From Pseudosulfitobacter pseudonitzschiae (lineage in GTDB: Bacteria; Pseudomonadota; Alphaproteobacteria; Rhodobacterales; Rhodobacteraceae), in contig NZ_CP022415.1 in assembly GCF_002222635.1 (NCBI RefSeq), positions 930,001 through 994,000 on the forward strand: a stretch of DNA of 64,000 nt. The letters are read 5' to 3'. The position numbers and the translations under genes were made by a program. The notes beneath the pieces were generated by a model, which was given only the letters and a program-made list of their open reading frames with translations, had not been told where the DNA came from and did no database searches. This document shows, piece by piece, positions 36,323 to 53,744 of this stretch. Each line of letters begins with the position of its first letter. Position 1 is the first letter of the stretch.

Positions 36323-36382
36323 TGCTTGAAATAAAATAGAATCACCCCTAGCCTCATCCTTGCTTGGTTCAGGGAGAAACTT

Positions 36383-38671
36383 ATGCGCGCTATCTGCCTC
36401 GGGGGCGGTCCTGCCGGACTGTACTTTGCCATTTCGCTGAAACTGCGCGACCCGAACGCGCAGGTTACTGTGATCGAGCGGAACAAACCCGATGACACCT
36501 TTGGCTGGGGCGTGGTTCTGTCAGATGAAACGCTGGGCAATCTGGCCGCCAATGATCCGGTCAGCGCCGAAACCATCCGTCAGCATTTCGCCTATTGGGA
36601 CGACATCGCCCTGCACCACAAAGGCCAGCGGATCGTCAGCACTGGCCACGGTTTCTGCGGTATCGGACGCAAGACGCTGCTCAGCCTGCTGCAGACGCGC
36701 GCCCGCGATCTGGGTGTCGATCTACAGTTCGAAACCGAAGTGGCCAGTGCCAGCGCCTATATGGATGATTACGACCTTGTGGTTGCCTGCGACGGGCTGA
36801 ACTCAAAGACGCGGCTTGAATTTCAGGACACGTTCAAACCCGACATCGACGTGCGCCGTTGCCCCTTTGTCTGGCTGGGCACGCATCAGAAATTCGACGA
36901 CGCCTTCACCTTCATCTTCGAGAAGACGGAACATGGCTGGGTCTGGGCGCACGCCTATCAATTCGACCCCGACACCGCGACGTTCATCGTGGAATGTTCG
37001 CAGGCGACTTATGACGCCTTCGGCTTTGACAGCATGAGCAAAGAGGAGAGTATCGCGACCTGCGAGCGGATATTTGCAGACCATCTGGACGGCCATGCGC
37101 TGATGTCCAACGCCAATCATGTGCGTGGTTCGGCCTGGATCAAATTCCCGCGTGTGCTGTGCGAGACATGGCACCATGAAAATGTCGTCCTGCTGGGCGA
37201 CGCCTCGGCCACGGCGCATTTCTCGATCGGGTCGGGGACCAAGCTGGCGCTGGAATCCGCCGCGAAACTGGCCGAAGCGGTGGTGAACGAGCCGGACCTC
37301 GGCAAAGCATTCACCGACTATGAGGCCGCGCGGCGGCTGGAAGTGCTGCGCCTGCAATCGGCGGCCCGCAACTCATTGGAGTGGTTCGAGGATGTAGAGC
37401 GGTATCTGGACATGGACCCGGTGCAGTTGAATTACTCGATGCTGACAAGGTCACAACGTATCAGCCACGAAAACCTGCGTGAACGTGACCCGAAATGGCT
37501 GGCCGATGCCGAAGGCTGGTTTATGGAACAGGCGGGGGCTGCAAAGACCGCGCCCCGCGCGCCGATGTTCGCACCGCTGAAATTGCGCGACCTGATGCTG
37601 GCCAACCGGATCGTGGTTTCACCGATGGCGCAGTACAAGGCCGTGGATGGCTGCCCGACCGACTGGCACCTGATCCACTATGGCGAACGCGCCAAGGGCG
37701 GCGCGGGGCTGGTCTATACCGAAATGACATGCGTATCGGCACAGGGTCGGATCACACCGGGCTGTCCGGGGCTCTATGCGCCCGAACACGAGGCCGCGTG
37801 GAAGCGGCTGGTGGATTTTGTCCACACCGAAACCGGTGCCGCGATTTGCTGCCAGATTGGGCACGCGGGTCGCAAGGGGTCGACACAGGTGGGGTGGGAA
37901 ACCATGGACGCGCCGCTGCCTTCGGGCAACTGGCCGCTGATTTCGGCCAGCGCGCTACCGTGGTCTGACGGCAATGCAACGCCCCGCGCAATGACGCGCG
38001 AAGATATGGACACTGTGACGGCGCAATTCGTTGCAGCGGCCCGAATGGCCGAACGCGCAGGCTTTGACATGATCGAACTGCACGCAGCGCACGGATATCT
38101 GATCTCGTCCTTTATCTCGCCGCTGTCGAACACCCGCGACGATGCTTATGGCGGGACGCTGGACAACCGCCTGCGCTATCCTTTGGAAGTCTTCACCGCG
38201 ATGCGTGCGGTGTGGCCTGCACACAAACCGATGGCTGTGCGGATTTCGTCCACCGACTGGCACGACATGGGTGTGACGCCCGAGCAAGCCGTGGACATCG
38301 CCCGCGCCTTTACCGCAGCAGGCGCCGATATCATCGACGTCAGCGCAGGCCAGACCAGCACCGAAGGGCGCCCCGTCTATGGCCGCATGTTCCAGACACC
38401 GATGTCCGACCGTATTCGCAACGATGCAGGTGTAAAAACCATGGCGGTGGGCAATATCTTCGAGGCCGATCACGTCAATTCGATCCTGATGGCGGGCCGT
38501 GCCGATCTGGTCTGTCTTGCGCGGCCGCATCTGGCCGACCCCTATTGGACCCTGCGCGAAGCCGCGCGGATCGGTGACAGACAGGCCATTTGGCCACAAC
38601 CCTATGGCCCGGGCCGCGACCAGCTTTGGCGGCTGGCGGACCGTGCGGCAGAGACAGAGGAACGCGTATGA
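36383..38671 (+). CDS. 2-aminobenzoyl-CoA monooxygenase/reductase-type fusion (annotated also as salicylyl-CoA 5-hydroxylase/oxidoreductase)
   Basis: 762 residues made of two flavoenzymes. Residues 1 to about 375 are a PHBH-type FAD monooxygenase: [15 protein letters not shown] at 5-19 and [17 protein letters not shown] for the second FAD motif. From about residue 390 follows an Old Yellow Enzyme barrel: [47 protein letters not shown]. This fusion is known from Azoarcus evansii, where it hydroxylates and then dearomatises 2-aminobenzoyl-CoA; salicylyl-CoA hydroxylases are the related alternative. Neighbouring kynureninase and a CoA ligase favour anthraniloyl-CoA. First gene of the operon, overlapping the SDR by 4 bp. 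Confidence 0.88.
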
Positions 38672-39387
38672 GACAGGTTTTGATCACGGGTGGCGGGTCG
38701 GGCATCGGGCGCGGGATCGCGCGCGCTATGGCAGACGCGGGCGACGCGGTGACCATCGCGGGCCGCCGGATGGACGCATTGCAAGAGACGGATGGCGGGC
38801 GTGGCATGACCTGCCTGACCTGCGACGTGACCGACGAGGCATCGGTGGCGGCGCTGTTTTCCAAGCCTTACGATGTAGTGGTTGCCAACGCTGGTGCGGG
38901 TAAGTCGATGAAAATGCGCGACATGCCGCTGGATGTTTTCAAGGGCACTGTTGACGTGAACCTGACAGGCACTTTCCTGACCTTTCGCGCGGCCTTGCAG
39001 ACCATGACACGCGGCGGGCGGTTGATCGCCATCGCGTCGACTGCAGGCTTGCAGGGCGGGCCGAATATCTCGGCCTATGTGGCGGCGAAACACGGGGTGA
39101 TCGGGCTGGTGCGGGCGCTGGCCACCGAAGTTGCGCGCGACGGCATCACCTGCAACGCGGTCTGCCCCGGTTTCGTGGACACTCCGATGGGCGAAGCGGC
39201 TGTGCAAGGCGTCGCCGCACGGTTCAAAATCAGCGAAGAAGAGGCAACAGCGCGTATCACCTCGGGCAACCCGATGCGGCGCATGATCACTGTGGACGAA
39301 GTCGTGGCGGCAGTGACCTTCCTTGCCTCCGAAGGTGCGTCGATGGTCAATGGCCACACGCTGTCGGTTTCGGGCGGCGAGATATGA
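38668..39387 (+). CDS. Short-chain dehydrogenase/reductase in the anthraniloyl-CoA operon
   Basis: 239 residues from ATG 38668 (overlaps the preceding stop). Motifs: [23 protein letters not shown], catalytic Ser in [12 protein letters not shown], Tyr/Lys in [11 protein letters not shown], and an FVDTPM loop. NAD(P)-dependent oxidoreductase. In this context it may act on the 5-oxo or 5-hydroxy group of the dearomatised ring or on a 3-hydroxyacyl-CoA after ring opening. Substrate inferred only. Overlaps the marR gene by 4 bp. Confidence 0.88.
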
Positions 39388-39842
39388 CCACGGCCAAGGA
39401 CCGCTTGCGCCTGTGGTTGCGTCTGCTGAAAGTCACGCGCGGCATCGAGGCGCGCCTGCGCGAAGCGCTGCGCCGTGAATTCAAAACCACGCTGCCCCGC
39501 TTTGACATGATGGCTGCCCTGTCACGTCACCCCGAGGGACTGAAAATGAGCGCGCTGTCCGGCGTGCTGCGCGTGTCCAACGGCAATGTCACCGGCATCG
39601 TGGATCGGCTGGAAGAAGAAGGGCTGGCTGTGCGCGTGCCAGTTCCGAGGGACCGCCGCGCAATGATGGTTCGGATGACCGAAGACGGGCTGGCCGAATT
39701 CGCCCGTCAGGCACAGGCCCACGAGGGTTGGATCGACGAAATGTTGGGCGATTTTACCGCCGACGAGGCCCGAAGCCTTGCCACGCGCCTGATGCGTCTG
39801 GCCGAAACCCAAGACAAAGAGGAGATGACCCATGCGCTCTGA
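39384..39842 (+). CDS. MarR family transcriptional regulator
   Basis: 152 residues with a winged helix: [40 protein letters not shown] and the wing [18 protein letters not shown]. It is embedded inside the operon, overlapping the SDR stop by 4 bp and the crotonase start by 11 bp. MarR proteins in CoA-dependent aromatic pathways (BadR, HcaR, CouR types) bind the CoA thioester and release DNA. By analogy anthraniloyl-CoA is the likely effector, and the AT-rich repeat at 36297 the likely operator. Confidence 0.9.
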
Positions 39843-40632
39843 CGTAACCCATTTTGAATGCGAGATTGCTGATGGCATCGCCACCGTGCGGCTCAGCCGT
39901 CCCGACCGGAAGAACCCGCTGACCTTTGACAGCTACGCCGAATTGCGCGACTGGTTTCGCGATCTGCACTATGTCGACGACGTGCATGCGGTGGTGTTTG
40001 CGTCGAACGGTGGCAACTTCAGCTCTGGCGGGGATGTGCATGATATTATTGGCCCTTTAACCAAAATGAACATGAAGGAACTGCTGCGGTTCACGCGGAT
40101 GACCGGCGATCTGGTCAAGGCAATCCTGGGCTGCGGCAAACCGGTGATCGCGGCCATCGACGGCATCTGCGTCGGTGCCGGTGCGATCATCGCGATGGCC
40201 TCCGACCTGCGGATCGGTACGCCCGAAGCCAAGACCGCCTTTCTGTTCACGCGCGTTGGGCTGGCGGGCTGCGACATGGGCGCTTGCGCGATGTTGCCCC
40301 GCATCATCGGTCAGGGCCGCGCGGCGGAACTGCTTTATACCGGTCGGTCGATGAGCGCGGAAGAGGGTGAAAAGTGGGGATTTTTCAACCGTCTTGTCGC
40401 TGCTGACACGCTGGAGACGTCGGCACGCGAACTGGCGGTGCAAATCGCGGCGGGGCCGAATTTTGCCCATATGATGACCAAAACCATGTTGGCGCAGGAA
40501 TGGTCGATGTCGCTGGATCAGGCGATCGAGGCCGAAGCGCAGGCGCAGGCGATTTGTATGCAGACGGCTGATTTCGAGCGCGCCTACCGCGCCTTTGTCG
40601 CCAAAGACCGCCCCGTTTTCGAAGGAGATTGA
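39832..40632 (+). CDS. Crotonase-fold enzyme lacking the hydratase glutamates
   Basis: 266 residues of the enoyl-CoA hydratase superfamily. [11 protein letters not shown] (about 62-72) and [14 protein letters not shown] form the oxyanion hole. The two catalytic glutamates of classical hydratases are missing: the GGGCE position reads GAGAI (residue 119), and the FGQPE position reads FLFTR (about 137-141). [16 protein letters not shown] stretch with Asp148 follows. Hydration of a simple enoyl-CoA is therefore doubtful; C-C hydrolysis of a cyclic 1,3-dicarbonyl (BadI/MenB-like) or isomerisation is possible. In the aminobenzoyl-CoA operon a ring-cleaving role is an attractive inference. Confidence 0.85.
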
Positions 40633-40686
40633 GCATGGGAGCCACCAGCGTGACCGTGTTGAACCAGAAAAGAAAGGCCTGTTGAT

Positions 40687-41832
40687 ATGTCTGACCGATC
40701 GTTTCTGATCTGGCCGTTTTTTGAAGCGCGCCACAAGGCTTTGGCCGATGATCTTGATACATGGTGTGCCGCAAACCTGCCGGTGGATCATTCCGATGTC
40801 GACGTGGCCTGCCGCAGTCTGGTGGCCGCACTGGGCGATGCGGGCTGGTTACAGCACACCGGCGGCGATCTGGATGTGCGCACCTTATGTCTGATCCGCG
40901 AAACGCTGGCGCGCCATGACGGTTTGGCCGATTTTGCCTTTGCCATGCAAGGGCTGGGCACGGGTGCGATCTCGTTGTTCGGGACCGAGGCACAAAAGGC
41001 GGCTTGGCTGCCGCTGACACGCACGGGGCGGGCGATTTCGGCCTTTGCCCTGACAGAGCCGCAATCTGGTTCGGATGTGGCAAGTTCCACCATGACAGCG
41101 GTGATGGATGGGGATGAATATGTTCTGAATGGACAAAAAACATGGATCAGCAACGGCGGTATTGCAGACGTATATACCGTTTTTGCACGGTCCGAGGATG
41201 TGCCAGGCGCGCGTGGGTTGTCGGCCTTTGTGGTGCCCGCAGACACGCCGGGGTTAGAGATTACCGAACGGTTGCAAGTGATTGCGCCGCACCCGCTGGC
41301 GACACTGACGTTCAACGATTGCCGGGTGCCTGCCTCGGCGCTGCTGGGGGAACGGGGCAAGGGGTTCGGCATCGCGATGTCGGTGCTGGATGTGTTCCGG
41401 TCCACCGTGGCCGCGGCCGCCTTGGGCTTTGCCCGTCGCGCGCTGGACGAAGCATTGACGCGGGTCACGACGCGGCAGGTGCAGGGATCGGCATTGGCGA
41501 AATTGCAGTTGGTGCAAGGGCATATTGCGGAAATGGCCGTTGATATCGATGCCTCTGCGCTGTTGGTCTACCGCGCCGCATGGACCAAGGACAGCGGCGC
41601 ACCAAGGGTGACGCGCGAGGCTGCGATGGCAAAGCTGTTTGCAACGGATCAGGCGCAAAAGGTGATTGATGCGGCGGTGCAGTTGCATGGCGGTGACGGG
41701 GTGCGCAGCGGGCAGATGGTTGAAAGCCTTTACCGCGAAATCCGCGCTTTACGCATCTATGAGGGCGCGTCGGATGTGCAGAAGGTTGTGATTGCACGGC
41801 AAACTTTGGCAGATTTCGCAGGAGGCAAATGA
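40687..41832 (+). CDS. Acyl-CoA dehydrogenase
   Basis: 381 residues, normal ACAD length. [20 protein letters not shown] binds FAD, with [19 protein letters not shown] following. The C-terminal [20 protein letters not shown] holds the catalytic Glu in IYEGASDVQ. It oxidises an acyl-CoA to the 2,3-enoyl-CoA using FAD and ETF. Located between the crotonase (54 bp) and the CoA ligase (4-bp overlap), it likely acts on a ring-opened or reduced intermediate. Exact substrate unknown. Confidence 0.9.
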
Positions 41833-43451
41833 TGTTAGGTCCGTCAGCACATATTGATACGTTTTCGCGTCGGAACCTGCCGCCGCAAGACCAATGGCCC
41901 ACGTTTGCCATGTCAGGGTTCGACTATCCCGAGGTGCTGAATGTGGGTGTCGCTCTGACCGACGAGATGGTGGCCAAAGGTTTCGGCGACCACACGGCGT
42001 TGATTGGCAACGGGCGGCGACGGACCTACAAAGAGATGTCGGATTGGACCAACCGATTGGCTCATGTTTTGGTTGAAGATCTTGGCGTAAAGCCTGGTAA
42101 TCGCGTCCTTATCCGGTCAGCCAATAATCCTGCGATGGTGGCGTGCTGGCTGGCCGCGACCAAGGCGGGCGCGGTAGTGGTGAATACCATGCCGATGCTG
42201 CGCGCAGGTGAATTGCGTGCAATTGTGGACAAGGCGCAGATCAGCCACGCGCTGTGCGACACGCGCCTGATGGACGAGATGCTGGCCTGCGCCGAAGGGT
42301 CTGACTATCTGACCAGCGTCACCGGTTTCGACGGCACATCCAACCACGAGGCAGAGCTGGACCGGCTGGCTTTGGAAAAGCCGGTGAAATTCGACGCGGT
42401 GCAAACGGGGCGCGATGATGTGGCGCTGCTGGGGTTTACCAGCGGAACCACCGGAAGCCCCAAGGCGACGATGCATTTTCACCGCGACCTTTTGATGATT
42501 GCGGACGGTTATGCGCGCGAGGTTCTGGGCGTGGTGCCCGAGGATGTCTTTGTCGGCTCGCCGCCGCTGGCCTTTACCTTCGGGCTTGGCGGGCTGGCGA
42601 TTTTCCCGTTGCGGTTTGGCGCTGCGGCGACGTTGCTGGAAACTGCATCGCCGCCGAACATGATCGAGATCATCGAGAAATACCGCGCGACTGTGTGCTT
42701 CACTGCCCCCACAGCCTATCGCGCCATGTTGCGCGCAATGGACGAGGGCGCTGATCTGAGCAGCTTGCGGGCCGCCGTGTCGGCGGGTGAAACGCTGCCT
42801 GCACCGGTCTATGAGGAATGGATTGCGAAAACCGGCAAGCCGATGCTGGACGGGATTGGTGCAACCGAGATGCTGCATATCTTTATTTCGAACCGCTTTG
42901 ACGATCACCGGCCCGCCTGTACTGGCAAGCCGGTAACGGGGTATCGCGCCAAAGTTGTGGATGCCGACGGGGTTGAAGTGCCGCGTGGCACCGTCGGCAG
43001 GTTGGCGGTGCAGGGGCCGACGGGCTGCCGCTATCTGGCGGACGCGCGGCAGGCCGATTATGTGCAGGATGGCTGGAACATAACCGGCGACAGCTTCACG
43101 ATGGACGAAGACGGCTATCTGCATTTTGCCGCGCGCAATGACGATATGATCGTTAGTGCCGGCTATAACATTGCAGGCCCCGAGGTCGAGGCGGCGTTGC
43201 TGTCGCATCCGGATGTTGCGGAATGTGCGGTTGTGGCCAAGTCGGACGAGGCGCGGGGCCAGATCGTTCAGGCGCATGTCGTCGTCTCGGGTGATGTGCC
43301 AAAAGATGAAATTCTTATCAAAGCATTGCAGGATCATGTGAAAGCGACCATCGCACCCTATAAGTACCCCCGCGACATCCGTTTTGTGGATGCATTGCCC
43401 AAAACGGCCACGGGCAAAATCCAACGCTTTGCATTGAGAGAGACCGAATGA
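41829..43451 (+). CDS. 2-aminobenzoate (anthranilate)-CoA ligase candidate, benzoate-CoA ligase family
   Basis: 540 residues, ATG 41829 with AGGAGG 3 bp upstream. AMP-forming ligase motifs: [19 protein letters not shown] (A3), [20 protein letters not shown] (A5-like), [20 protein letters not shown] (A8) and [15 protein letters not shown] with the C-terminal catalytic Lys. The A5-like block is close to benzoate/aminobenzoate-CoA ligases. It would activate the anthranilate made by kynureninase (two genes downstream) to anthraniloyl-CoA, the substrate of the fusion monooxygenase. Specificity for anthranilate rests on context. Overlaps ACAD and TDO genes by 4 bp each. Confidence 0.88.
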
Positions 43452-44263
43452 CAGACCACCACGGCGCAAAACTCGATTTCAGCAAGGATATGTCCTATGG
43501 CGATTACCTGGGGCTGGACGCGATCCTGACCGCGCAGCACCCGCGATCGGATGCCCATGACGAGATGCTTTTTATCGTGCAGCACCAGACATCCGAATTG
43601 TGGATGCGCTTGGCAATTCACGAATTGCAAACCGCGCGCCTGCGCATCGCATCAGAAGAATTGCAGCCTGCTTTCAAGATGTTGACCCGCGTGGCGCGGA
43701 TTTTTGAACAGTTGAACGGTGCGTGGGACGTGCTGCGCACGATGACGCCCAGTGAATACACCGCGTTTCGCCCGTCTTTGGGCAATTCCTCGGGGTTTCA
43801 GTCACATCAATACCGGATGGTTGAATATCTGCTGGGCAATCGTCAGGTGGCGTTGAAAAAGGTACACGAACACCGGAGCGAGGCACATACCGCGCTGGAG
43901 GCCGAACTGGCACAGCCCAGCCTGTATCAGGTGGCTCTGGCGGTGGTGGCCGCACGACTGGATGTCAAAGCGCCCGATGCGGCCCCTTCGCAGGCGGCGT
44001 GGGCGGCTGATCCGACGGTGCAGGATATGTGGAAGACAGTTTACCAAGACCCCGCAACCCATTGGGAACTCTATGAACTGGCGGAAAAGCTGGTGGACCT
44101 CGAGGATTACTTTCGCCGTTGGCGGTTTAACCATGTGACCACGGTCGAGCGTATCATCGGATTCAAACGCGGCACGGGTGGGACTTCCGGCGTGGCGTAT
44201 CTGCGCAAGATGCTCGAAGTCGAGCTGTTTCCCGAACTTTGGCATGTCAGAGGAGAGTTGTAA
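43448..44263 (+). CDS. kynA: Tryptophan 2,3-dioxygenase
   Basis: 271 residues, the normal length of bacterial TDO. LDFSKDMSYGDYLGLDAILT, FIVQHQTSELWMRLAIHELQ (active-site His46 by position) and SGFQSHQYRMVEYLLGNRQ are the diagnostic blocks; NHVTTVERIIGFKRGTGGTS near the C terminus includes the heme-ligand His. It converts L-tryptophan and O2 to N-formylkynurenine. It overlaps the ligase by 4 bp and shares the TAATG junction with kynU, so co-translation is expected. Confidence 0.95.
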   Translation: MTDHHGAKLDFSKDMSYGDYLGLDAILTAQHPRSDAHDEMLFIVQHQTSELWMRLAIHELQTARLRIASEELQPAFKMLTRVARIFEQLNGAWDVLRTMTPSEYTAFRPSLGNSSGFQSHQYRMVEYLLGNRQVALKKVHEHRSEAHTALEAELAQPSLYQVALAVVAARLDVKAPDAAPSQAAWAADPTVQDMWKTVYQDPATHWELYELAEKLVDLEDYFRRWRFNHVTTVERIIGFKRGTGGTSGVAYLRKMLEVELFPELWHVRGEL

Positions 44264-45447
44264 TGGTGCTGCGCAAAGAGATGTTCGATCTGCCCCAAGG
44301 TGTCTTGTACCTTGACGGTAACTCGTTGGGGCCGTTGCCAAAAGCTGCACAAGCGCGGGTGTCTGGCATGATTGCCGACGAATGGGGCCAGATGCTGATC
44401 CGTGGCTGGAACGATGCCGGATGGATGGCACAGCCCGCACGGATCGGCGACAAGGTTGGCCGCCTGATCGGTGCGCCCGAAGGGTCGGTTGTGATGGGCG
44501 ACACGCTGTCGATCAAGGTCTATCAGGCGGTTGCCTCGGCCCTGAAAATGCGGCCCGGCCGCAAGGTTATTCTGAGTGATACCGGCAACTTCCCCACTGA
44601 TCTTTATATGGTGCAGGGGCTGATCAACACGCTGGATCAGGGGTTCGAATTGAAAACCGTTGCCCCCGAAGATGTGGGGGATGCCATCGACGACCAGATT
44701 GCCGCCGTGATGCTGACCGAAGTGGATTACCGCACGGGTCGCAAGCACGACATGAAGGCGATTACCGAGATTGCCCATGCCAACGGTGCGGTGATGATCT
44801 GGGATCTGGCCCATTCCACCGGTGCCGTGCCTGTCGATCTGGCGGCCAGCAATTGCGAAATGGCGGTGGGTTGCACGTATAAATACCTTAACGGCGGGCC
44901 CGGCGCACCTGCGTTCATCTATGTGCGGCCCGATCTGGCCGGTGATGTTCAGCCCGCGCTGGCCGGATGGCTGGGCCACGATGCGCCGTTTGATTTTGAC
45001 CCCGATTACCGCCCCGCTGGCGGGATCGAGCGGATGCGCGTGGGCACGCCGCCGATCATCCAGCTGGCCGCGCTTGAGGCCGCGATGGAGGTCTGGGAGG
45101 GCGTCGACATGGCCGATGTGCGCAAGGCCTCTGTCGCCTTGCAAGAGGTTTTCATCAGGGAAGTCGAGGCGCGCGTGCCCGCCCTGACGCTGGCCAGCCC
45201 GCGCGATGCGGCGCAGCGTGGCAGTCAGGTCTCGTTCAAGTTCGAACAAGGGTATGCCGCGATGCAGGCTCTGATCGCACGCGGGGTGATCGGTGATTTC
45301 CGTGCGCCCGACATCATGCGTTTTGGTTTTACGCCGCTTTACATCGACGAGGCCGACGTGATGGCCGCTGTGGAACATATCGAGACAGTGATGCGTGACA
45401 AATTGTGGGATGATCCGCAATATCGGACTCGCAGCAGGGTGACCTGA
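44263..45447 (+). CDS. kynU: Kynureninase
   Basis: 394 residues from ATG 44263, with AGAGGAGAG upstream. PLP enzyme: LYLDGNSLGPLPKAAQ at the N terminus, SDTGNFPTDLYM, MIWDLAHSTGAVPVDL and the PLP-binding Lys207 in GCTYKYLNGGPGAPAF. It cleaves L-kynurenine to anthranilate and alanine. Its start overlaps the TDO stop. No formamidase lies between the two enzymes, which is the usual partner in kynBAU operons. Confidence 0.95.
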   Translation: MVLRKEMFDLPQGVLYLDGNSLGPLPKAAQARVSGMIADEWGQMLIRGWNDAGWMAQPARIGDKVGRLIGAPEGSVVMGDTLSIKVYQAVASALKMRPGRKVILSDTGNFPTDLYMVQGLINTLDQGFELKTVAPEDVGDAIDDQIAAVMLTEVDYRTGRKHDMKAITEIAHANGAVMIWDLAHSTGAVPVDLAASNCEMAVGCTYKYLNGGPGAPAFIYVRPDLAGDVQPALAGWLGHDAPFDFDPDYRPAGGIERMRVGTPPIIQLAALEAAMEVWEGVDMADVRKASVALQEVFIREVEARVPALTLASPRDAAQRGSQVSFKFEQGYAAMQALIARGVIGDFRAPDIMRFGFTPLYIDEADVMAAVEHIETVMRDKLWDDPQYRTRSRVT

Positions 45448-45518
45448 AGATGGGACACCCTGCGACAAACGACAATAAAAGGGGCGCAATGACCCCATCA
45501 CCAAGGGAGAAGACAAAC

Positions 45519-46661
45519 ATGAAGATGAAATCACTGGTAGCAGCAGCCTGCATGGCGCTGGCAGGCACGGCGGCACAGGCCGACGGGCACGGCGGCAAGG
45601 TCAAGGTTGGCATGATCACCACGCTTTCGGGCGGCGGTGCCGGACTGGGCATCGACGTGCGCGACGGCTTTATGCTGGCGGCCAAGGGCAACGACATGCT
45701 CGAACTGATCATCGAAGACGACCAGCAAAAGCCCGATATCGCGGTGCAACTGGTCGATAAAATGATCCAGTCTGAAAATGTCGACGTTCTGACCGGCATC
45801 ATCTGGTCAAACCTTGCGATGGCCGTGGTTCCGTCGGCGACGGCGCAGGGCAAATTCTACCTGTCGCCCAATGCCGGTCCATCGGCGCTGGCAGGCAAGG
45901 GCTGTAGCCCGCTCTATTTCAACGTCGCATGGCAGAACGACGCCTTCTACGAGGCGAGTGGGCTTTGGGCCAACGACAACGGGATCAGCAAGGTGTTCCT
46001 GATGGCACCCAACTATCCGGCGGGCATCGACGGCATGACGGGCTTTAAGCGCACCTTCAAAGGCGAGGTCGTGAACGAGGTTTACACCAAGCTCGGCCAG
46101 ACCGATTACGCTGCCGAAATTGCGCAGATCCGCGCGTCTGACGCCGATACGGTCTATTTTTTCCTGCCGGGTGGCATGGGCATCTCGTTCATGAAGCAAT
46201 GGGCGGGTTCGGGTGTGGACAAGGCCGTGATGGGCCCTGCCTTCAGTTTTGATCAGGGCATTTTGGGCGCGATTGGCGAGGCCGCATTGGGCGTCAAGAA
46301 CACTTCGCATTGGTCCAAGGATCTGGATGTTCCGGGCAACGCCGAATTTGTGCAGGCGTTTCAGGACGAATACGGTCGTCTGCCGTCGCTTTATGCGGCT
46401 CAAGGCTATGACACCGCGCTTTTGCTGATGTCGGCAATGGGCAAAGCAGATGTGAACGACGCCGAGGCGTTTCAGGCCGCGCTGGAAGAGGCTGATTTCC
46501 AGTCGGTGCGCGGCAAGTTCTCGTTTGCGGAAAATCACCACCCGATCCACGACATCTATATGCGCGAAGTGGTCAAGGAGGGTGACGTCGTGACCAACAA
46601 GATCATCGGCGTTGCCGCGACCGATCACACAGATGTCTACGGTGCTGACTGCAAGATGTAA
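45519..46661 (+). CDS. ABC substrate-binding protein, branched-chain/aromatic (HAAT) type
   Basis: 380 residues from ATG 45519 with AAGGGAGAAG upstream. The signal peptide MKMKSLVAAACMALAGTAAQ ends near AQA. The mature domain KVKVGMITTLSGGGAGLGID and the type I periplasmic-binding fold (LIIEDDQQKPDIAVQLVDKM, NYPAGIDGMTGFKRTFKGEV) resemble LivK-like receptors for aromatic acids. It is 71 bp after kynU and begins the transporter part of the catabolic run. The ligand is probably tryptophan, kynurenine or anthranilate; context only. Confidence 0.9.
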   Translation: MKMKSLVAAACMALAGTAAQADGHGGKVKVGMITTLSGGGAGLGIDVRDGFMLAAKGNDMLELIIEDDQQKPDIAVQLVDKMIQSENVDVLTGIIWSNLAMAVVPSATAQGKFYLSPNAGPSALAGKGCSPLYFNVAWQNDAFYEASGLWANDNGISKVFLMAPNYPAGIDGMTGFKRTFKGEVVNEVYTKLGQTDYAAEIAQIRASDADTVYFFLPGGMGISFMKQWAGSGVDKAVMGPAFSFDQGILGAIGEAALGVKNTSHWSKDLDVPGNAEFVQAFQDEYGRLPSLYAAQGYDTALLLMSAMGKADVNDAEAFQAALEEADFQSVRGKFSFAENHHPIHDIYMREVVKEGDVVTNKIIGVAATDHTDVYGADCKM

Positions 46662-46668
46662 GATCAAT

Positions 46669-46695
46669 GGCTCTGGCAGGTCCGCTGCCAGAGCC
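46669..46695 (+). other. Perfect 11-bp intercistronic hairpin between receptor and permease genes
   Basis: Arms GGCTCTGGCAG (46669-46679) and CTGCCAGAGCC (46685-46695) with a 5-nt loop, directly after the binding-protein stop and without a U-tract. The same design occurs in the smo operon, where it also separates the receptor from the permeases. It probably tunes relative expression. Confidence 0.7.
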
Positions 46696-46758
46696 CGTTC
46701 CTGAAGCATAATAAATTTCAAAGGCTTGTCGCTGCGTCGCGCAGGGCAGGGTTGGCAG

Positions 46759-47676
46759 ATGACACCATTGTTGTTGATCGAACAGGTGCTGAACGGGCTG
46801 CAATCGGGGATTATGTTGTTCCTGATGGCCGCCGGTTTGACGCTGATTTTCGGGGTTATGGGGCTGATCAATCTCGCCCACGGCTCGCTTTATATGATCG
46901 GTGCCTTTGCGGCAGCGGCTGTGGCGGGCTGGACCGGATCGTTCGTGCTGGCCTTGGGGGCGGCGCTGGCTGCGGCGGCCGCGGCGGGCTGTGTGATCGA
47001 AATGGTTGTGATCCGCAGGCTGTATGACCGTGACCATCTGGATCAGGTTCTTGCGACCTTTGCGCTGATCCTGATCTTTTCCGAAGGCACGCGGTGGCTG
47101 TTCGGATCATTTCCGCTGTATCTGGATGTGCCTGCGGCGCTGTCCGGTCCGGTGACTTTGCCCGGTGGCATCCTTTATCCGTCCTATCGTTTGCTGATCA
47201 TCGTGATCGGGCTGCTGATCGCCGTGGGGCTGTTCCAGCTGATCGCGCGCACGCGGATCGGCATCCAGATCCGCGCGGGTGAAAGTGACCGCGAGATGAT
47301 CGGCGCCTTGGGCGTGGACATCAGCCGTCTTTATACCATCGTGTTCGCGCTGGGTGCGGCGCTGGCCGGACTGGCGGGCGCATTGGTGGGCGCGATCCAG
47401 TCGGTGCAGGTCGGCATGGGCGAGCCTGTGTTGATCCTTGCATTCGTGGTCATCGTGATCGGTGGCATCGGCTCGATCAAGGGCGCGCTGGTCGGCGCCC
47501 TTTTGGTGGGGATGACCGACACGCTGGGCGGCGTGCTGTTGCCGTTGCTGTTTGGTCTGTTCATGGACCCGTCGAGTGCGACAACCATCGGGTCGGCGCT
47601 GGCGTCGATGTCGATCTATATCCTGATGGCGCTGGTTCTGCTGTTCCGGCCCACCGGCCTGTACGGAGGGGCGTAA
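46759..47676 (+). CDS. livH: LivH-type ABC permease
   Basis: 305 residues from ATG 46759. Hydrophobic protein with about eight membrane segments. Family blocks: LLIEQVLNGLQSGIMLFLMA, AAGLTLIFGVMGLINLAHGS and IRAGESDREMIGALGVDIS; ALAGLAGALVGAIQSVQVGM is also typical. Branched-chain amino-acid (HAAT) importer permease, working with LivM. Located 97 bp after the receptor gene. Confidence 0.92.
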   Translation: MTPLLLIEQVLNGLQSGIMLFLMAAGLTLIFGVMGLINLAHGSLYMIGAFAAAAVAGWTGSFVLALGAALAAAAAAGCVIEMVVIRRLYDRDHLDQVLATFALILIFSEGTRWLFGSFPLYLDVPAALSGPVTLPGGILYPSYRLLIIVIGLLIAVGLFQLIARTRIGIQIRAGESDREMIGALGVDISRLYTIVFALGAALAGLAGALVGAIQSVQVGMGEPVLILAFVVIVIGGIGSIKGALVGALLVGMTDTLGGVLLPLLFGLFMDPSSATTIGSALASMSIYILMALVLLFRPTGLYGGA

Positions 47677-47677
47677 G

Positions 47678-48661
47678 ATGCGGCGCGAAACGATACTGAA
47701 TACACTGCTTTATCTGGCGATGCCCGTGGCCGCCGGTCTGGCCTTTGCGCTGGACGAGCCGTTTCTGATCACCCTCATCACCCGTGCGGCGATCTTTGCG
47801 CTGGCGGCTGTGGGGTTGAACCTTGCCTTGGGCTTGGGCGGTCTTGTCAGCCTTGGACATGCGGCGTTCTTTGGTATTGGCGGATATGCGATGGGTATTC
47901 TTGCGCATCATGCGCAGACCTTTACGCCGATCATGGACACATGGTTCGTGCTTGAGGGCACCAAGTCGATGCCGGTGATCTGGCTGGTGGCGATTGTCAG
48001 CTCTGCACTGGCGGCTTTGGCAATCGGGGCGCTGTCGCTGCGCACCTCGGGCGTCTATTTCATCATGATCACGCTCGCCTTCGGGCAGATGTTCTATTAC
48101 TTCGCGATCTCGTGGCCTGCCTATGGCGGTGAGGACGGCCTCAGCATCTATGTGCGCAATGATTTTCCGGGGCTGAACACGCTGGACCCGATGCAGTTCT
48201 TTGCGCTGGTTTTTGCGATCCTGTCGGCGGTGCTGTGGTGGATGGGCCGTCTGGCCCGCGCGCCCTTTGGTCTTGCGCTGAGTGCGGCCCGCCAGAACGC
48301 CGAGCGGGTCGAGACCGTGGGCCTTGGGCCGTTCCGGTTGCGGCTGGTGGCCTTCGTGATTTCGGGCGCTGTAACCGGGCTGGCGGGGGCGCTGTTTGCC
48401 GACCTTAACCGCTTTGTCAGCCCGACAATGTTCAGCTGGCAGATGTCGGGCGAATTTATCGTGTTTATTGTGCTGGGCGGTGTGGGCCGTCTGTTCGGGC
48501 CGGTGGCGGGGGCCATGCTGTTTGTGCTGCTGGAACACCTGCTGTCGCCGGTGTCGGATTTCTGGCTGATCTATGTGGGTGTGATCCTGTTGCTGGTGGT
48601 TTTGTTCGCACGCGGCGGTCTGATCGGGTCACTGGCCGGACGGGAGGTGGCTCATGACTGA
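47678..48661 (+). CDS. livM: LivM-type ABC permease
   Basis: 327 residues. About nine membrane segments, with AAVGLNLALGLGGLVSLGHA and AAFFGIGGYAMG near the N terminus, SLRTSGVYFIMITLAFGQMF, and LVAFVISGAVTGLAGALFAD at the C-terminal half, all LivM hallmarks. A CGGAGG lies 7 bp upstream; it is 1 bp after livH and overlaps livG by 8 bp. Confidence 0.92.
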   Translation: MRRETILNTLLYLAMPVAAGLAFALDEPFLITLITRAAIFALAAVGLNLALGLGGLVSLGHAAFFGIGGYAMGILAHHAQTFTPIMDTWFVLEGTKSMPVIWLVAIVSSALAALAIGALSLRTSGVYFIMITLAFGQMFYYFAISWPAYGGEDGLSIYVRNDFPGLNTLDPMQFFALVFAILSAVLWWMGRLARAPFGLALSAARQNAERVETVGLGPFRLRLVAFVISGAVTGLAGALFADLNRFVSPTMFSWQMSGEFIVFIVLGGVGRLFGPVAGAMLFVLLEHLLSPVSDFWLIYVGVILLLVVLFARGGLIGSLAGREVAHD

Positions 48662-49409
48662 ACCGCTGTTGCATGTGGACGGGCTGCACAAAGCCTTTGG
48701 GGCGTTGCAGGCCACGGACGGGGTGTCACTGACGCTGCGCGCGGGCGAAATTCACGCGCTGATCGGGCCGAACGGGGCCGGTAAATCAACGCTGATCAAA
48801 CAGATCGCGGGTGGGCTGGCCCCCGACGCGGGGCGCGTGTGGTTTGAAGGGCGCGATGTCACCGCGCTGAGCACTCAGGCGCGCGCGCGGGCCGGGCTGG
48901 GGCGCACGTTCCAGATATCGTCGCTGGCGATGGAGGCGACGGTGCTGCAAAATGCCGTACTAGGCGCGATGGGCCGGGCCGGATCGGTCTGGCGCTTCCT
49001 GCGTCCGGTGATGCGCGATGCGGAACTGGTGGAGCAGGCGCAGGCGGCATTGGCGCGGGTCGGCCTGACGGATCACGCCAGCACCCGCACGGCGGAACTC
49101 AGCCACGGCCAGCGGCGGTTGCTTGAGGTGGCTGTTGCCCTGACGTTGAAACCGCACGCCTTTGTCATGGACGAACCGATGGCGGGCCTTGGCGCGTCGG
49201 GGTCCAAGCGGATGACCACCTTCCTTGACGGGCTGCGCCGCGAGGCACCGATCCTGCTGGTCGAACACGACATGGACGCGGTCTTTGCGCTGGCCGACCG
49301 GATCAGCGTGCTGGTCTACGGCAAGATCATCGCCACCGGCACAGCCGACGAAATTCGCGCCGACCCGCAGGTGCGCACCGCCTATCTGGGCGAGGAGGAC
49401 GCGGCATGA
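48654..49409 (+). CDS. livG: LivG-type ABC ATPase
   Basis: 251 residues. Walker A GPNGAGKSTLIKQIAGG, signature LSHGQRRLLEVAVAL, Walker B AFVMDEPMAGLGASG, H-loop LVEHDMDAVF. The LSHGQ variant signature and the DMDAVFALADRISVL stretch are typical of LivG. It overlaps livM (8 bp) and livF (4 bp). Confidence 0.92.
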   Translation: MTEPLLHVDGLHKAFGALQATDGVSLTLRAGEIHALIGPNGAGKSTLIKQIAGGLAPDAGRVWFEGRDVTALSTQARARAGLGRTFQISSLAMEATVLQNAVLGAMGRAGSVWRFLRPVMRDAELVEQAQAALARVGLTDHASTRTAELSHGQRRLLEVAVALTLKPHAFVMDEPMAGLGASGSKRMTTFLDGLRREAPILLVEHDMDAVFALADRISVLVYGKIIATGTADEIRADPQVRTAYLGEEDAA

Positions 49410-50095
49410 GCTTGTTGAAACTGGAACAGGTTCAGGCGTCCTACGGCCCGTCGCAGGCGCTGTTCGGTGTTGATCTGGAAGTGGCCGAGGGCGAGGTGGT
49501 CGCCCTGATGGGCCGCAACGGTATGGGTAAATCGTCGACCATCAAGGTGATCAGCCGCCTGTTAAAGCATAAATCCGGCAGCGTGATACTGGACGGACGC
49601 GACATTGGTGGTTTGCCACCGCACAAAGCGGCGCAGGCTGGTCTGGGGCTCGTGCCCGAGGGGCGGCGGTGTTTTCGCAACCTGACAGTGCGCGAAAACC
49701 TGATTGCGGCAGCGCGGTCCGGGCATTGGGACATGGCGCGGGTCACTGCGTTGTTCCCGCGGCTACAAGAGCGGCAAGAGCAGCTTTCGGCGTCGCTGTC
49801 GGGAGGCGAGCAACAGATGCTGGCCATTGGCCGCGCGCTGATGACCAACCCGCGCCTGCTGATGCTGGACGAGGCCACCGAAGGTCTGGCCCCCGTGGTG
49901 CGTCAGGAAATCTGGGCTGCGGTGCGCACGCTGAAATCCGAAACCGGGCTGGCGCTGTTGGTGGTTGACAAATCGCTGGCCGAACTGCGCCAGATCGCGG
50001 ACCGCGCCGTTATTCTGGAACGCGGCACATCGGTGTGGCGTGGCGATATGGCGGCGCTGGATCGCGATATTGCAGATAAATTCTTGGGCGTCTGA
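49406..50095 (+). CDS. livF: LivF-type ABC ATPase
   Basis: 229 residues. Walker A GRNGMGKSSTIKVISRL, GLGLVPEGRRCFRNLTVREN (LivF-type Q-loop region), signature LSGGEQQMLAIGRALM, Walker B LLMLDEATEGLAP. Overlaps livG by 4 bp and completes the five-component importer. Confidence 0.92.
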   Translation: MSLLKLEQVQASYGPSQALFGVDLEVAEGEVVALMGRNGMGKSSTIKVISRLLKHKSGSVILDGRDIGGLPPHKAAQAGLGLVPEGRRCFRNLTVRENLIAAARSGHWDMARVTALFPRLQERQEQLSASLSGGEQQMLAIGRALMTNPRLLMLDEATEGLAPVVRQEIWAAVRTLKSETGLALLVVDKSLAELRQIADRAVILERGTSVWRGDMAALDRDIADKFLGV

Positions 50096-50119
50096 CGTCC
50101 CCGTAACAGGAGGTGGCTT

Positions 50120-50515
50120 ATGGCCCATCGTATTATTCAACCCGACGGCTGGAAACCCGCCAGGGGCTACGCCAACGGAGTTCTGACCAAATCCGGCACG
50201 CTTTATGTGGGCGGGCAGATCGGCTGGACTGCCGATCAGGTGTTCGAAGTGCATGATTTTATCGGCCAGATGCGTCAGGCTCTGTCCAATATCCGCACTG
50301 TGGTCGAGGCGGCGGGGGGCACCTGCGCCGACATCGTGCGGCTGACGTGGTATGTCACCGACAAGGCCGACTATCTGGCGCATCAGGCCGAGGTTGGCGC
50401 CGCCTATCGCGACGTGTTGGGCCGCAACTTTCCGGCGATGACAATGGTCGTGATCGACGCATTGGTCGAGGACGAAGCCCTGTTGGAAATCGAAGCTACC
50501 GCCGAGATCGGGTAA
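50120..50515 (+). CDS. ridA: RidA family enamine/imine deaminase in the anthraniloyl-CoA operon
   Basis: 131 residues. RidA/YjgF fold with GYANGVLTKSGTLYVGGQIG, FVEVHDFIGQMRQALSNIRT-like helix (here FEVHDFIGQMRQALSNIRTV), VRLTWYVTDKADY and NFPAMTMVVIDALVEDEALL, the last containing the Glu of the binding site. An AGGAGG ribosome-binding site precedes it, 25 bp after livF. Canonical RidA has an Arg in the C-terminal half (the R105 position); here the segment reads NFPAMTMVVIDAL, so Arg is not seen there and the subgroup may differ. A role hydrolysing the enamine of the dearomatised intermediate is inference. It overlaps znuB by 20 bp, tail to tail. Confidence 0.85.
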   Translation: MAHRIIQPDGWKPARGYANGVLTKSGTLYVGGQIGWTADQVFEVHDFIGQMRQALSNIRTVVEAAGGTCADIVRLTWYVTDKADYLAHQAEVGAAYRDVLGRNFPAMTMVVIDALVEDEALLEIEATAEIG

Positions 50516-51293
50516 GGCTGCGCAGCACCGATGTCAGCACAAAGGCACCTGCTGCCACGCTGACGATGCTGGGACCGGTGGGGGTATCCCATTGGAACGA
50601 CGCGGCCAAACCACCCAATGCGGCCAGTGCGCCGATGGCAGCGGCGATCGCGGCCATCGCCTCGGGTGTGCGGGCCAGCGGGCGTGATGCGGCCGCCGGA
50701 ATGATCAGCAGCGCGGCAATCAGCAGTGCGCCGACCACTTTGATCGCACAGGCCACAGTGATGGCCAGCGTCAGGGTCAGAACCAGCTGTTCGCGGCGCG
50801 GGTTGATGCCGCTGGCCTGTGCCAGATCGGGGTTCAGCGTCGCCGACAACAGCGCCGTCCAGCGCCAGACCAGCATGGCGATGACCAAGGCCGCTCCGCC
50901 CCAGATCAGTGCCAGATCGCCTTTGGTCACAGCCAGAATATCGCCAAAAAGATAGGCCATCAGGTCCACACGCACCCCGTGCAACAGGGACACCGCCACC
51001 AGCCCCAGCGCCAGTGCTGCATGTGCCATCACACCCAGCAGCGTGTCTTCGGCCAGACCGCGACCCGACAGGGTGCTGACAGCCAGTGCCATCAGCAGCG
51101 CAACCACCAGAACACCCAGCAAGACCGGCCCCTGAAAGGTCAGCGCCAGCGCCACGCCCAGCAGGGCGGCATGGGACGTCGCATCGCCGAAATAGGCCAT
51201 GCGCCGCCAGACAACAAAACACCCCAAAGGGGCAGCGGCCAGTGCGACACCGATGCCGGCAAGAGCGGCGCGCAGGGCGAAATCATCGAGCAT
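50496..51293 (-). CDS. znuB: High-affinity zinc ABC permease ZnuB
   Basis: 265 residues from ATG 51293, about eight membrane helices. LAAAPLGCFVVWRRMAYFGD, ATSHAALLGVALAL and VDLMAYLFGDILAVTKGDLA are the usual blocks of the ZnuB/MntB family. ATG overlaps the znuC 3' end by 11 bp. Its stop lies within the convergent ridA gene (20-bp overlap). Imports Zn(II) together with ZnuA and ZnuC. Confidence 0.92.
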   Translation of the reverse strand: MLDDFALRAALAGIGVALAAAPLGCFVVWRRMAYFGDATSHAALLGVALALTFQGPVLLGVLVVALLMALAVSTLSGRGLAEDTLLGVMAHAALALGLVAVSLLHGVRVDLMAYLFGDILAVTKGDLALIWGGAALVIAMLVWRWTALLSATLNPDLAQASGINPRREQLVLTLTLAITVACAIKVVGALLIAALLIIPAAASRPLARTPEAMAAIAAAIGALAALGGLAASFQWDTPTGPSIVSVAAGAFVLTSVLRSLTRSRR

Positions 51294-52038
51294 GGGAGTG
51301 GCCTTTGTGATCGTGGTCGTGATCATGCGCATGATCGTGGTTATGTTCGTGCCGGTACAGCGCCAGCGCGCCTTGGGTGCCAGAGCCGAACAGCGCGCGG
51401 TATTCGGGGGCGTCGCGCACCACGTCGGGGGTTCCTTCGCAGCAGATATGGCCGTTGACGCACAGAACCCGATCCGAGGCCGCCATAACCACATGCAAAT
51501 CATGGCTGACCATCAGCACAGCACAGCCCAATTCGGCCCGAACCTCTTCGATCTGGCGGTAAAAAGCGGCCGATCCGGGCTGGTCGAGACCTTGGGTCGC
51601 TTCGTCAAGGATCAGCAAATTGGGCCGCATCAACAATGCGCGGGCCAGCAACACGCGCTGGAACTGGCCGCCCGACAGCTCGGACATCTGCGCGCGGCCC
51701 AGATCGGGCAGCCCCGCATGGCGCAGCGCCTCTGCCAGGGCCTGCGGTTTACTGCGGCGGGGCAGGTTCATGAACCGCTGCACCGTCAGGGGCAGTGTCG
51801 GGTCGATGTGCAGGCTTTGCGGGACATAGCCGATGGACAGGTCGGGCGTGCGGGCGATGCTGCCGGACACTGGTTTCAGGGCGCCGATCAACCCCTTGAG
51901 AAGCGTAGACTTTCCCGAGCCATTGGGGCCGACAATGGTGACAATCTCGCCTGCGTTAATGTAAAAGTCCACGTCGCGTAGCACCGGGGCGCCGCCCTGC
52001 GCCAGCGTCATGGCCTTGGTCTGGATCAGCGGGTTCAT
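51283..52038 (-). CDS. znuC: Zinc ABC ATPase ZnuC with histidine-rich C terminus
   Basis: 251 residues. Walker A GPNGSGKSTLLKGLIGA, signature LSGGQFQRVLLARALL, Walker B LLILDEATQGLDQPG, H-loop MVSHDLHVVMAASDR. The last 20 or so residues are strongly His/Asp-rich (YRHEHNHDHAHDHDHDHKGH), a probable metal-binding or sensing tail. It overlaps zur by 4 bp and znuB by 11 bp. Confidence 0.92.
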   Translation of the reverse strand: MNPLIQTKAMTLAQGGAPVLRDVDFYINAGEIVTIVGPNGSGKSTLLKGLIGALKPVSGSIARTPDLSIGYVPQSLHIDPTLPLTVQRFMNLPRRSKPQALAEALRHAGLPDLGRAQMSELSGGQFQRVLLARALLMRPNLLILDEATQGLDQPGSAAFYRQIEEVRAELGCAVLMVSHDLHVVMAASDRVLCVNGHICCEGTPDVVRDAPEYRALFGSGTQGALALYRHEHNHDHAHDHDHDHKGHSHAR

Positions 52039-52514
52039 ACAGTGCTGCCCTGACAACTGGGGCACAGGCCTTCTGCTTCGATGACGGTGCGTTCGATCTT
52101 GAATCCTGTGTCGCGTGCAGCGTCGCCCAGACGGCCACGTGCCATTTCGGTGTCTGCCTCGGCCACGGACTTGCAGGCGCGACAGATCAAAAAGGCGGGC
52201 GCGTGCTCGGACCCCAGATGGGCGCAGGCGACATAGGCATTCAGACGCTCGATCTTGTGGGCGAAGCCTGCAGAGGTCAGAAAATCAAGCGCACGGTAGG
52301 CGACGGGGGGTTGCGACCCCAGCCCGTCGTCGGCCAGAAGGCTGAGCAGGTCATAGGCCCCGAGTGCGCGGTGTTCGCGCAGCAGGATTTCCAATGCGCG
52401 GCGGCGCACCGGCGTCAGTTTCAGCTTGTGATCGGCGCAATGGCGCTCGGCTGCTGCGATCGAGGCGTCGATGCAGGCGGCGTGATCATGGCGGTGAAAG
52501 CCGATGGCAGGCAT
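52035..52514 (-). CDS. zur: Zinc uptake regulator Zur (Fur family)
   Basis: 159 residues. The winged helix is LTPVRRRALEILLREHRALG with PVAYRALDFLTSAGFAHKIE. The dimer domain has the structural zinc Cys pairs: CRACK and CPSC near the C terminus, and CAHLGSEHAPAFLIC. It represses zinc uptake genes when zinc is sufficient. It is the first gene of zur-znuCB and is divergent from znuA with a palindrome between. Confidence 0.9.
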   Translation of the reverse strand: MPAIGFHRHDHAACIDASIAAAERHCADHKLKLTPVRRRALEILLREHRALGAYDLLSLLADDGLGSQPPVAYRALDFLTSAGFAHKIERLNAYVACAHLGSEHAPAFLICRACKSVAEADTEMARGRLGDAARDTGFKIERTVIEAEGLCPSCQGSTV

Positions 52515-52545
52515 GTGAAAGCTCTCCGTGTTTTGTGGGTTGATA

Positions 52546-52560
52546 TGTTATAGCATAACA
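52546..52560. promoter_or_regulatory. Zur box between zur and znuA
   Basis: TGTTAT-agc-ATAACA is a perfect palindrome with a 3-bp centre inside GATATGTTATAGCATAACA. It closely resembles the alphaproteobacterial Zur consensus (GATATGTTATAACATATC, from memory). It lies 31 bp from zur and 38 bp from znuA, placed to control both promoters. Confidence 0.8.
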
Positions 52561-52598
52561 ATTAGCAAGACCGCGAAATTCACACCGGAGAGAATATC

Positions 52599-53603: not shown

Positions 53604-53610
53604 TACGAGG

Positions 53611-53670
53611 ACTGGGGGCGCTGCCCCCGGCGCTGCGCGCCTCCCCCGGAGTTTATCTGGCAAGATGAAG
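53611..53670. repeat. REP-like intergenic element common in Rhodobacterales
   Basis: After the znuA stop comes GGGGGC-gct-GCCCCC (53614-53628), then CGGCGCTGCGCGCCT and CCCCCGGAGTTTATCT followed by GGCAAGATGAAG. From memory, very similar blocks (GC hairpin plus CCCCCGGAGTATTT and a CAAGATGAAG-like end) recur between genes in Rhodobacterales genomes. Only one copy is seen in this window, so repeat status rests on that memory. Confidence 0.45.
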
Positions 53671-53679
53671 CCGGAAATG

Positions 53680-53705
53680 AAAAAGACCCCGCCCTGTAAG
53701 GGGCG
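53680..53705 (-). terminator. Intrinsic terminator downstream of phoX
   Basis: On the minus strand, CGCCC-cttaca-GGGCG (stem at 53690-53705) is followed by GGGTCTTTTT, giving a stem with a U-tract about 40 bp after the phoX stop. It may also shield znuA from readthrough. Confidence 0.7.
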
Positions 53706-53744
53706 AGATCTGGAAAATGCTGAAAAAGACTGGTTATAAATCAG

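Follow-up and report, generated by a model that had tools for sequence, protein, structure and literature searches.

A unit of 14 genes in the alphaproteobacterium Pseudosulfitobacter pseudonitzschiae (contig NZ_CP022415.1, positions 930,001 to 994,000, a stretch of 64,000 nucleotides that we call the window) is a 2-aminobenzoyl-coenzyme A (CoA) cluster of the type known from Azoarcus, with tryptophan genes built in. Its first gene encodes a fusion flavoprotein and its last a protein of the Rid family in which a conserved Arg is replaced by Met. Across the genomes compared, this Rid protein occurs in the same set of genomes as the fusion flavoprotein, and a crotonase of the unit does so almost as strictly. 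We tentatively propose, as a call that falls only slightly short of even, that the Met-for-Arg Rid group is a catabolic enamine hydrolase for a CoA thioester and the obligate partner of the fusion flavoprotein across the phylum, and that the crotonase is a ring-opening hydrolase.

To assess how closely these proteins travel together, we compared two genome sets, scoring in each genome the best first-look candidates (three for the fusion enzyme, eight for the crotonase and up to 14-15 for Rid). Among 292 genomes of the same family, 119 encode the fusion enzyme (116 above the profile cut-off and three full-length but just below it). A Rid profile (A2), built from 18 cluster Rid proteins, finds matches at an expectation value (E) of at most 1e-22 in the identical 119 genomes and in 0 of the 173 without a fusion gene; the weakest of the best matches per genome has an E of 3.9e-56, hence the choice of limit is not critical. 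The second set, a sample of 269 genomes from the phylum, includes 14 same-family genomes already counted (six with the fusion gene). Here the fusion gene is present in 37 genomes (34 above the cut-off and three below) and Rid in those same 37, the two sets having been matched up by eye. Outside the family, Rid is found in all 31 fusion genomes and in 0 of 224 without the fusion gene, and in 28 of the 31 the two genes are no more than 15 kb apart, while the other three (G342, G480 and G484) have Rid on another contig. Five genomes of family f8 (G326, G399, G445, G484 and G499) carry extra, more distant Rid copies (E from 1e-37 to 1e-39) beside a closer one.

The crotonase shows nearly the same distribution. 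Its profile, NF006107, is matched above the cut-off in 115 of the 292 same-family genomes, all of which have the fusion gene (112 of the 116 and the three borderline ones), and in 0 of the 173 others, and the four same-family fusion genomes that lack the crotonase retain Rid. In the phylum sample the crotonase occurs in 35 of 269 genomes, all among the 37 with the fusion gene. The initial annotation had named RidA and the crotonase as candidates for the downstream route, and both are borne out as members of the pathway, Rid by sharing its genome set with the fusion enzyme and the crotonase by its near-exclusive tie to fusion genomes.

Asp148 of the crotonase is conserved throughout the alignment (183 of 183 rows). 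An Asp stands at the same place in BadI, MenB and 4-chlorobenzoyl-CoA dehalogenase. Asp148 also aligns, at about 31-32% identity, with Asp136 of the ring isomerase PaaG, an enzyme that shares this residue but works in another pathway; from the title of entry 6sla, Asp136 is the residue changed in the D136N mutant. Among solved structures the nearest relative is 3g64, whose title reads putative enoyl-CoA hydratase (44% identity). Classical enoyl-CoA hydratases have two catalytic Glu residues; at these places, located by motif and not by aligning a classical hydratase, the window protein has Ile119 and Arg141. Judged by its residues, the crotonase is probably not a classical hydratase. Of its predicted activities we favour opening of the ring of a beta-keto thioester, with isomerization of the ring as the other possibility. 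The structure model has a mean predicted local distance difference test score (pLDDT) of 82.9 with two weak stretches, one of which (residues 140-143) lies near Asp148, and we therefore relied on the sequence alignment for that region.

Residue 107 of the Rid protein is Met in all 138 aligned rows (the window and 137 loci; a 138th locus fell to the identity limit of 42%, and the window's locus and some genomes enter twice), and also in all 59 further Rid loci inspected, many of which are the same genes refetched. The corresponding column is Arg in HI0719 (1j7h). The protein shares with archetypal RidA the PF01042 domain and the fold (Foldseek E 7.7e-14 to RutC), the structure model (pLDDT 95.5) confirming the fold only; it differs from it in having Met107 where RidA has the conserved Arg for imine hydrolysis, and in sharing its genome set with the fusion enzyme. 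Niehaus et al. (2015; PMC4433059) state that this Arg binds the carboxylate of the substrate and is required for the hydrolysis of imines. They call the Arg-less Rid4-7 groups mysterious and report that these appear not to hydrolyse imines; neither "anthranil" nor "aminobenzo" occurs in the main text. Our own reading is that a CoA thioester offers no free carboxylate there, so that an enamine hydrolase acting on it would not need the Arg, and Met in this position fits a thioester substrate. Rid-type proteins are known to deaminate 2-aminomuconate (PMC6449761). We found no report in the open-licence literature, subscription journals lying outside the scope of the search, that links a Rid protein to 2-amino-5-oxocyclohex-1-ene-carboxyl-CoA.

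The explanation that accounts best for the unit as a whole, and which we think fairly probable, is an operon controlled by its MarR protein, with a CoA-thioester route in which Rid and then the crotonase act downstream. The operon would serve growth on tryptophan or anthranilate under aerobic conditions and would probably be regulated by the MarR protein that it encodes. Tryptophan 2,3-dioxygenase (TDO) would convert tryptophan to N-formylkynurenine, a formamidase encoded outside the unit (candidate G000:C1:3433353-3434141) would yield kynurenine, kynureninase (KynU) would release anthranilate and alanine, and the ligase would form 2-aminobenzoyl-CoA. The fusion flavoprotein would then oxygenate and reduce this ester to 2-amino-5-oxocyclohex-1-ene-1-carboxyl-CoA, the enamine of which Rid would hydrolyse, with release of ammonia, to 2,5-dioxocyclohexane-1-carboxyl-CoA. 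The Asp-type crotonase may cleave the beta-keto ring bond to give 4-oxopimeloyl-CoA (or may isomerize the ring), and the short-chain dehydrogenase/reductase (SDR) and the acyl-CoA dehydrogenase may act on the oxo-pimeloyl-CoA chain and lead it into central metabolism, these last steps being guesses. What the genomes display is gene content, order, conservation and co-occurrence, and from these we infer every reaction in the organism as well as the sequence of events downstream of the fusion enzyme. In Arthrobacter, a CoA ester with the formula C7H8O4, perhaps cyclohexanedione-carboxyl-CoA according to the authors, was seen in anthranilate-grown cells only (PMC3534580), and such an ester would fit the fusion and Rid steps.

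Several observations weigh against this scheme. The same Arthrobacter study describes the amino-oxo compound as unstable below pH 5 and the samples as quenched in formic acid (PMC3534580), so the dione ester may be a non-enzymatic artefact of the work-up. Because the Arg is reported to be needed for imine hydrolysis, and Arg-less Rid4-7 appear to lack this activity, its loss in the Rid protein could equally mean a loss of activity. The crotonase is absent from two fusion genomes of the phylum sample (G319 and G342) and from the four same-family genomes mentioned above, and there is no formamidase among the genes of the unit. Co-occurrence, furthermore, places proteins in one pathway, not in one step, and gives no order of steps; Fisher tests on it ignore shared ancestry, and absences at the genome level are not absolute, since only the best first-look candidates were scored.

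The alternative that survives best, though we find it doubtful, is that Rid is a guard against stray imines and enamines, with deamination being spontaneous or brought about by the crotonase or another enzyme. Guarding is the usual role of RidA, the Arg-less Rid proteins are described without shown hydrolase activity (PMC4433059), and the pathway intermediate is reported to be acid-labile (PMC3534580). However, Rid accompanies the fusion enzyme throughout the genomes examined, even in the five of 119 where TDO was not found, a generic RidA would be enough for imines derived from pyridoxal phosphate, and Met is fixed in all cluster Rid members inspected. We rate as unlikely, and somewhat below a guarding role, an order in which ring reduction precedes deamination, so that the SDR reduces the 5-oxo group, the dehydrogenase and crotonase carry out beta-oxidation of the amino ring, and Rid acts late. 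Such an order would agree with the wording of a review that terms the later steps beta-oxidation (PMC4539516), and with the SDR sharing its strand with the fusion gene in 114 of the 120 loci, but the C7H8O4 ester of Arthrobacter, if it is the dione-CoA, carries two oxo groups and lacks an amine, subject to the caveat of the acid quench (PMC3534580), and four loci (L148, L149, L151 and L152) retain the fusion gene, SDR and Rid without the crotonase and dehydrogenase, the crotonase being absent genome-wide and the dehydrogenase having been sought in the locus only. By far the least probable of the three, and an unlikely alternative in its own right, is that salicylate is the substrate handled by the ligase and the fusion enzyme (5-hydroxylation of salicylyl-CoA), with TDO and KynU as mere neighbours: NF006101, matched far above its cut-off, is named bifunctional salicylyl-CoA 5-hydroxylase/oxidoreductase, and the ligase falls below the benzoate-CoA ligase cut-off, which leaves its substrate open, but TDO is encoded in 114 of 119 fusion genomes compared with 61 of 173 same-family genomes without the fusion gene, TDO and KynU lie within the operon in relatives, an amino substrate is the simplest explanation for the constant presence of Rid, and two Arthrobacter ligases adjoining such fusion genes had anthranilate-CoA ligase activity (PMC3534580).

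The frequency of TDO in fusion genomes, together with TDO and KynU inside the operon, thus favours anthranilate over salicylate, and the sequence evidence supports a unit of the type that leads from tryptophan through anthranilate to anthraniloyl-CoA. The initial annotation had reached the same reading, and it stands, TDO and KynU being embedded in a 2-aminobenzoyl-CoA cluster and recurring in relatives. Two of its further claims are not supported. One was that the unit encodes the whole route, whose formamidase step is missing from the unit; the other was that the unit has its own importer, read as one for tryptophan. Across loci, importer and TDO are not associated (TDO in 10 of 39 loci that have LivH and in 27 of 81 without it), and we rejected tryptophan as the default substrate. 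This lack of association suggests that the importer works for the stretch of the route common to these loci, with uptake of anthranilate as the simplest case; its predicted ligand is probably anthranilate or a related acid.

The genome holds TDO (as the sole copy found) and kynureninase, and KynB arylformamidase was not found in it, the best match reaching 42.5 bits against a cut-off of 223. Three PF04199 proteins of the genome were considered as KynB formamidases and set aside, none being near the KynB cut-off or linked to the unit. A candidate for the formamidase, judged by sequence likeness, is the alpha/beta hydrolase at G000:C1:3433353-3434141 (L157), about 2.45 Mb from the unit. Hydrolases of the PF07859 type with an HGG(Y/F)W motif share the locus with TDO in eight of 37 TDO loci, lie within about 150 bases of it in L038, L039, L058 and L071, and are the gene divergent from the fusion gene in L168, L172, L185, L224, L187 and L188, which belong to Thalassospira, Aquamicrobium and Mesorhizobium. 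The one homologue of these hydrolases in the genome of the window is this candidate outside the unit, which is 41-51% identical to 31 of the 33 compared; it matches the solved kynurenine formamidase 4e11 at an E of 4.6e-14, its best solved match being 2pbl, a putative, uncharacterised esterase (4.5e-95). The model NF058665 names this protein and those of L058 and L038 as hormone-sensitive lipase, the protein of L064 falling below its cut-off. For the hydrolases adjacent to TDO this name may mislead, because relatives lie near TDO and the member in our genome matches a solved kynurenine formamidase.

The unit itself spans positions 36383-50515 of the window, with all 14 genes on the plus strand, all reading frames open, and the gene order as first annotated. 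Eight of the 13 junctions are overlaps (five of 4 bases, the others of 1, 8 and 11), and the remaining five are gaps of 1, 24, 54, 71 and about 97 bases, figures that depend on the starts chosen (SDR 38668, KynU 44263, LivK 45519 and the LivH ATG at 46759). With most junctions overlapping and the other gaps below 100 bases, co-transcription of the 14 genes is likely. The description of a unit on one strand, mostly with overlaps or gaps under 100 bp, was thereby confirmed by gene calls and profile matches. The unit contains the gene set of an abm-type cluster, namely the fusion gene with a linked aryl-CoA ligase, beta-oxidation-type genes, a MarR regulator, a binding protein and Rid, and an ATP-binding cassette (ABC) importer of the branched-chain-amino-acid type, with binding protein, two permeases and two ATPases.

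Table 1. Genes of the unit and the candidate promoter upstream, in window coordinates
Feature	Position	Strand	Basis
Candidate sigma70-like promoter: TTGAAA, 17-base spacer, TAGCCT	36326..36354	+	Hexamers picked by eye
Fusion flavoprotein: flavin adenine dinucleotide (FAD) monooxygenase plus old yellow enzyme domain, 2-aminobenzoyl-CoA monooxygenase/reductase type	36383..38671	+	NF006101 1304 bits, cut-off 1078; PF01494 and PF00724
SDR oxidoreductase	38668..39387	+	PF13561/PF00106; Y-x-x-x-K present; start is the ATG overlapping the fusion stop
MarR-family regulator	39384..39842	+	PF12802; same strand in 112/120 loci
Crotonase, PRK08258 family, invariant Asp148	39832..40632	+	NF006107 480 bits, cut-off 330
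Acyl-CoA dehydrogenase	40687..41832	+	PF00441, PF02770, PF02771
Aryl-CoA ligase, predicted 2-aminobenzoate-CoA ligase	41829..43451	+	TIGR02262 354 bits, below cut-off 375; PF00501
Tryptophan 2,3-dioxygenase (TDO, KynA)	43448..44263	+	PF03301 245 bits; TIGR03036 386 bits, just below cut-off 391
Kynureninase (KynU)	44263..45447	+	TIGR01814 279 bits, cut-off 246
LivK-type periplasmic binding protein	45519..46661	+	PF13458 253 bits
LivH-type permease	46759..47676	+	TIGR03409 182 bits, NF008011 70 bits, both below cut-off
LivM-type permease	47678..48661	+	TIGR03408 136 bits, NF008450 87 bits, both below cut-off
LivG-type ATPase	48654..49409	+	TIGR03411 205 bits, NF008449 181 bits, both below cut-off
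LivF-type ATPase	49406..50095	+	TIGR03410 211 bits, NF008626 171 bits, both below cut-off
Rid-family protein, Met107 replacing conserved Arg, predicted enamine hydrolase	50120..50515	+	PF01042

To see how far the locus is conserved, up to 20 kb around each full-length fusion gene was taken from the 292 same-family genomes, which gave 120 loci, the window's own included (117 fusion genes above the cut-off, from 116 genomes, and three just below). Genes were counted by tblastn with the window proteins at identity limits that we set, and the counts are lower bounds, since contig ends or the 20 kb limit truncate some of the loci. On the strand of the fusion gene we find the SDR in 114 loci, MarR and the crotonase in 112 each, the dehydrogenase in 111, the ligase in 99, Rid in 92, LivH in 33, TDO in 26 and KynU in 12. 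Counted on either strand, TDO is present in 37 of the 120 loci and KynU in 20, each time alongside TDO. All 14 genes occur in six loci (L052, L053, which is the window, L058, L061, L071 and L114), and L052, L053 and L061 keep the same order and strand. The unit is hence beyond chance, the same genes recurring around the fusion gene in relatives and two loci besides the window keeping all of them in place. Among 80 named loci, some of them on contigs that also occur in the unnamed set, TDO is present in 26 (counted by eye), including loci of Sulfitobacter, Thalassospira, Ahrensia, Mesorhizobium and Maricaulis; of the named fusion genes, the closest comes from Sulfitobacter sp. HGT1 (84% identity, L158), and no Azoarcus record is among the 80.

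Upstream of the fusion genes, the hexamer CTTGAA occurs within 200 bases in 177 of 198 cases, compared with 8.35 on average over 20 single-base shuffles, and in the window it stands at the candidate promoter. Some fusion genes are also preceded by a TTTCAAGCTTGAAA-like dyad that overlaps a -35-like element and is a candidate MarR operator; TTCAANNTTGAA is found in 47 of the 198 upstream stretches and in none of the shuffles. The 18-base form of the dyad is absent from the window at up to three mismatches, and we therefore claim the CTTGAA element alone for it, and not the shared operator. A scan of the window's own genome for the dyad gave three places with three mismatches each, and a scan of L157 gave no match. 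The 5' neighbour of the unit, on the opposite strand, encodes an RsgA-type GTPase, and downstream, at 51283-55769 of the window, lie genes for an ABC ATPase, a ZnuA-type zinc-binding protein and a PhoX alkaline phosphatase.

A different arrangement is seen in L148, L149 and L151 (also in L043, L067 and L072), which have a divergent fusion gene (65-66% identity in the first three), SDR, Rid and MarR, and no ligase. These clusters hold a PF04199 cyclase, which we take to resemble isatin hydrolase, and two proteins that, by eye, resemble subunits of indolepyruvate ferredoxin oxidoreductase; perhaps they serve a route from an indole compound into 2-aminobenzoyl-CoA. A thioesterase-like protein of 138 residues (L114:17035-17451, just below the Pfam cut-off) has homologues in 71 of the 120 loci and none in the unit of the window.

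The clusters of A. evansii described by Schuhle et al. in 2001 reportedly combine a ligase and the fusion gene with three genes of beta-oxidation type, a regulator of MarR type, a binding protein of an ABC system and a small "putative translation inhibitor", that is, a member of the Rid family. The unit in the window shares all of these elements reported for the abm clusters and differs in having TDO, KynU and all five importer genes in the same unit, the likeness being judged by gene content. Phaeobacter inhibens, of the same bacterial group, is said to degrade tryptophan by the same route, via kynurenine and 2-aminobenzoate (the work of Drueppel et al. in 2014), though with its genes reportedly scattered over the chromosome and not in one operon as here. 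The novelty first claimed is smaller than stated in view of what is reported for these two systems, and what remains new is the evidence on the downstream roles of Rid and the crotonase. The cells used by Drueppel et al. (2014) were grown on tryptophan (per PMC5653290), and A. evansii is an organism from which this type of pathway is already known (review PMC4539516). Arthrobacter sp. Rue61a resembles the present case in its assayed ligases, its fusion gene and a possible dione-CoA in grown cells, but its pathway is fed from quinaldine, and the stem "kynurenin" is nowhere in the main text (PMC3534580). In the open-licence literature we found no prior report of the strict pairing of Rid with the fusion enzyme, of the fixed Met or of the assignment of these enzymes.

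In the literature searched, we found no account that defines what becomes of the first non-aromatic intermediate when anthranilate is degraded aerobically. Rid, strictly, and the crotonase, nearly so, are tied in genomes to the enzyme that makes this intermediate, and both can be assayed. If the assignment is true, the step left open after the work on A. evansii would be filled, and the Rid family, seen mainly as damage control, would contain a dedicated pathway enzyme. The view that Rid proteins without the Arg do not act as hydrolases would then fall, and these proteins would gain a first function. The locus shows how such bacteria may route tryptophan towards central metabolism through a single operon.

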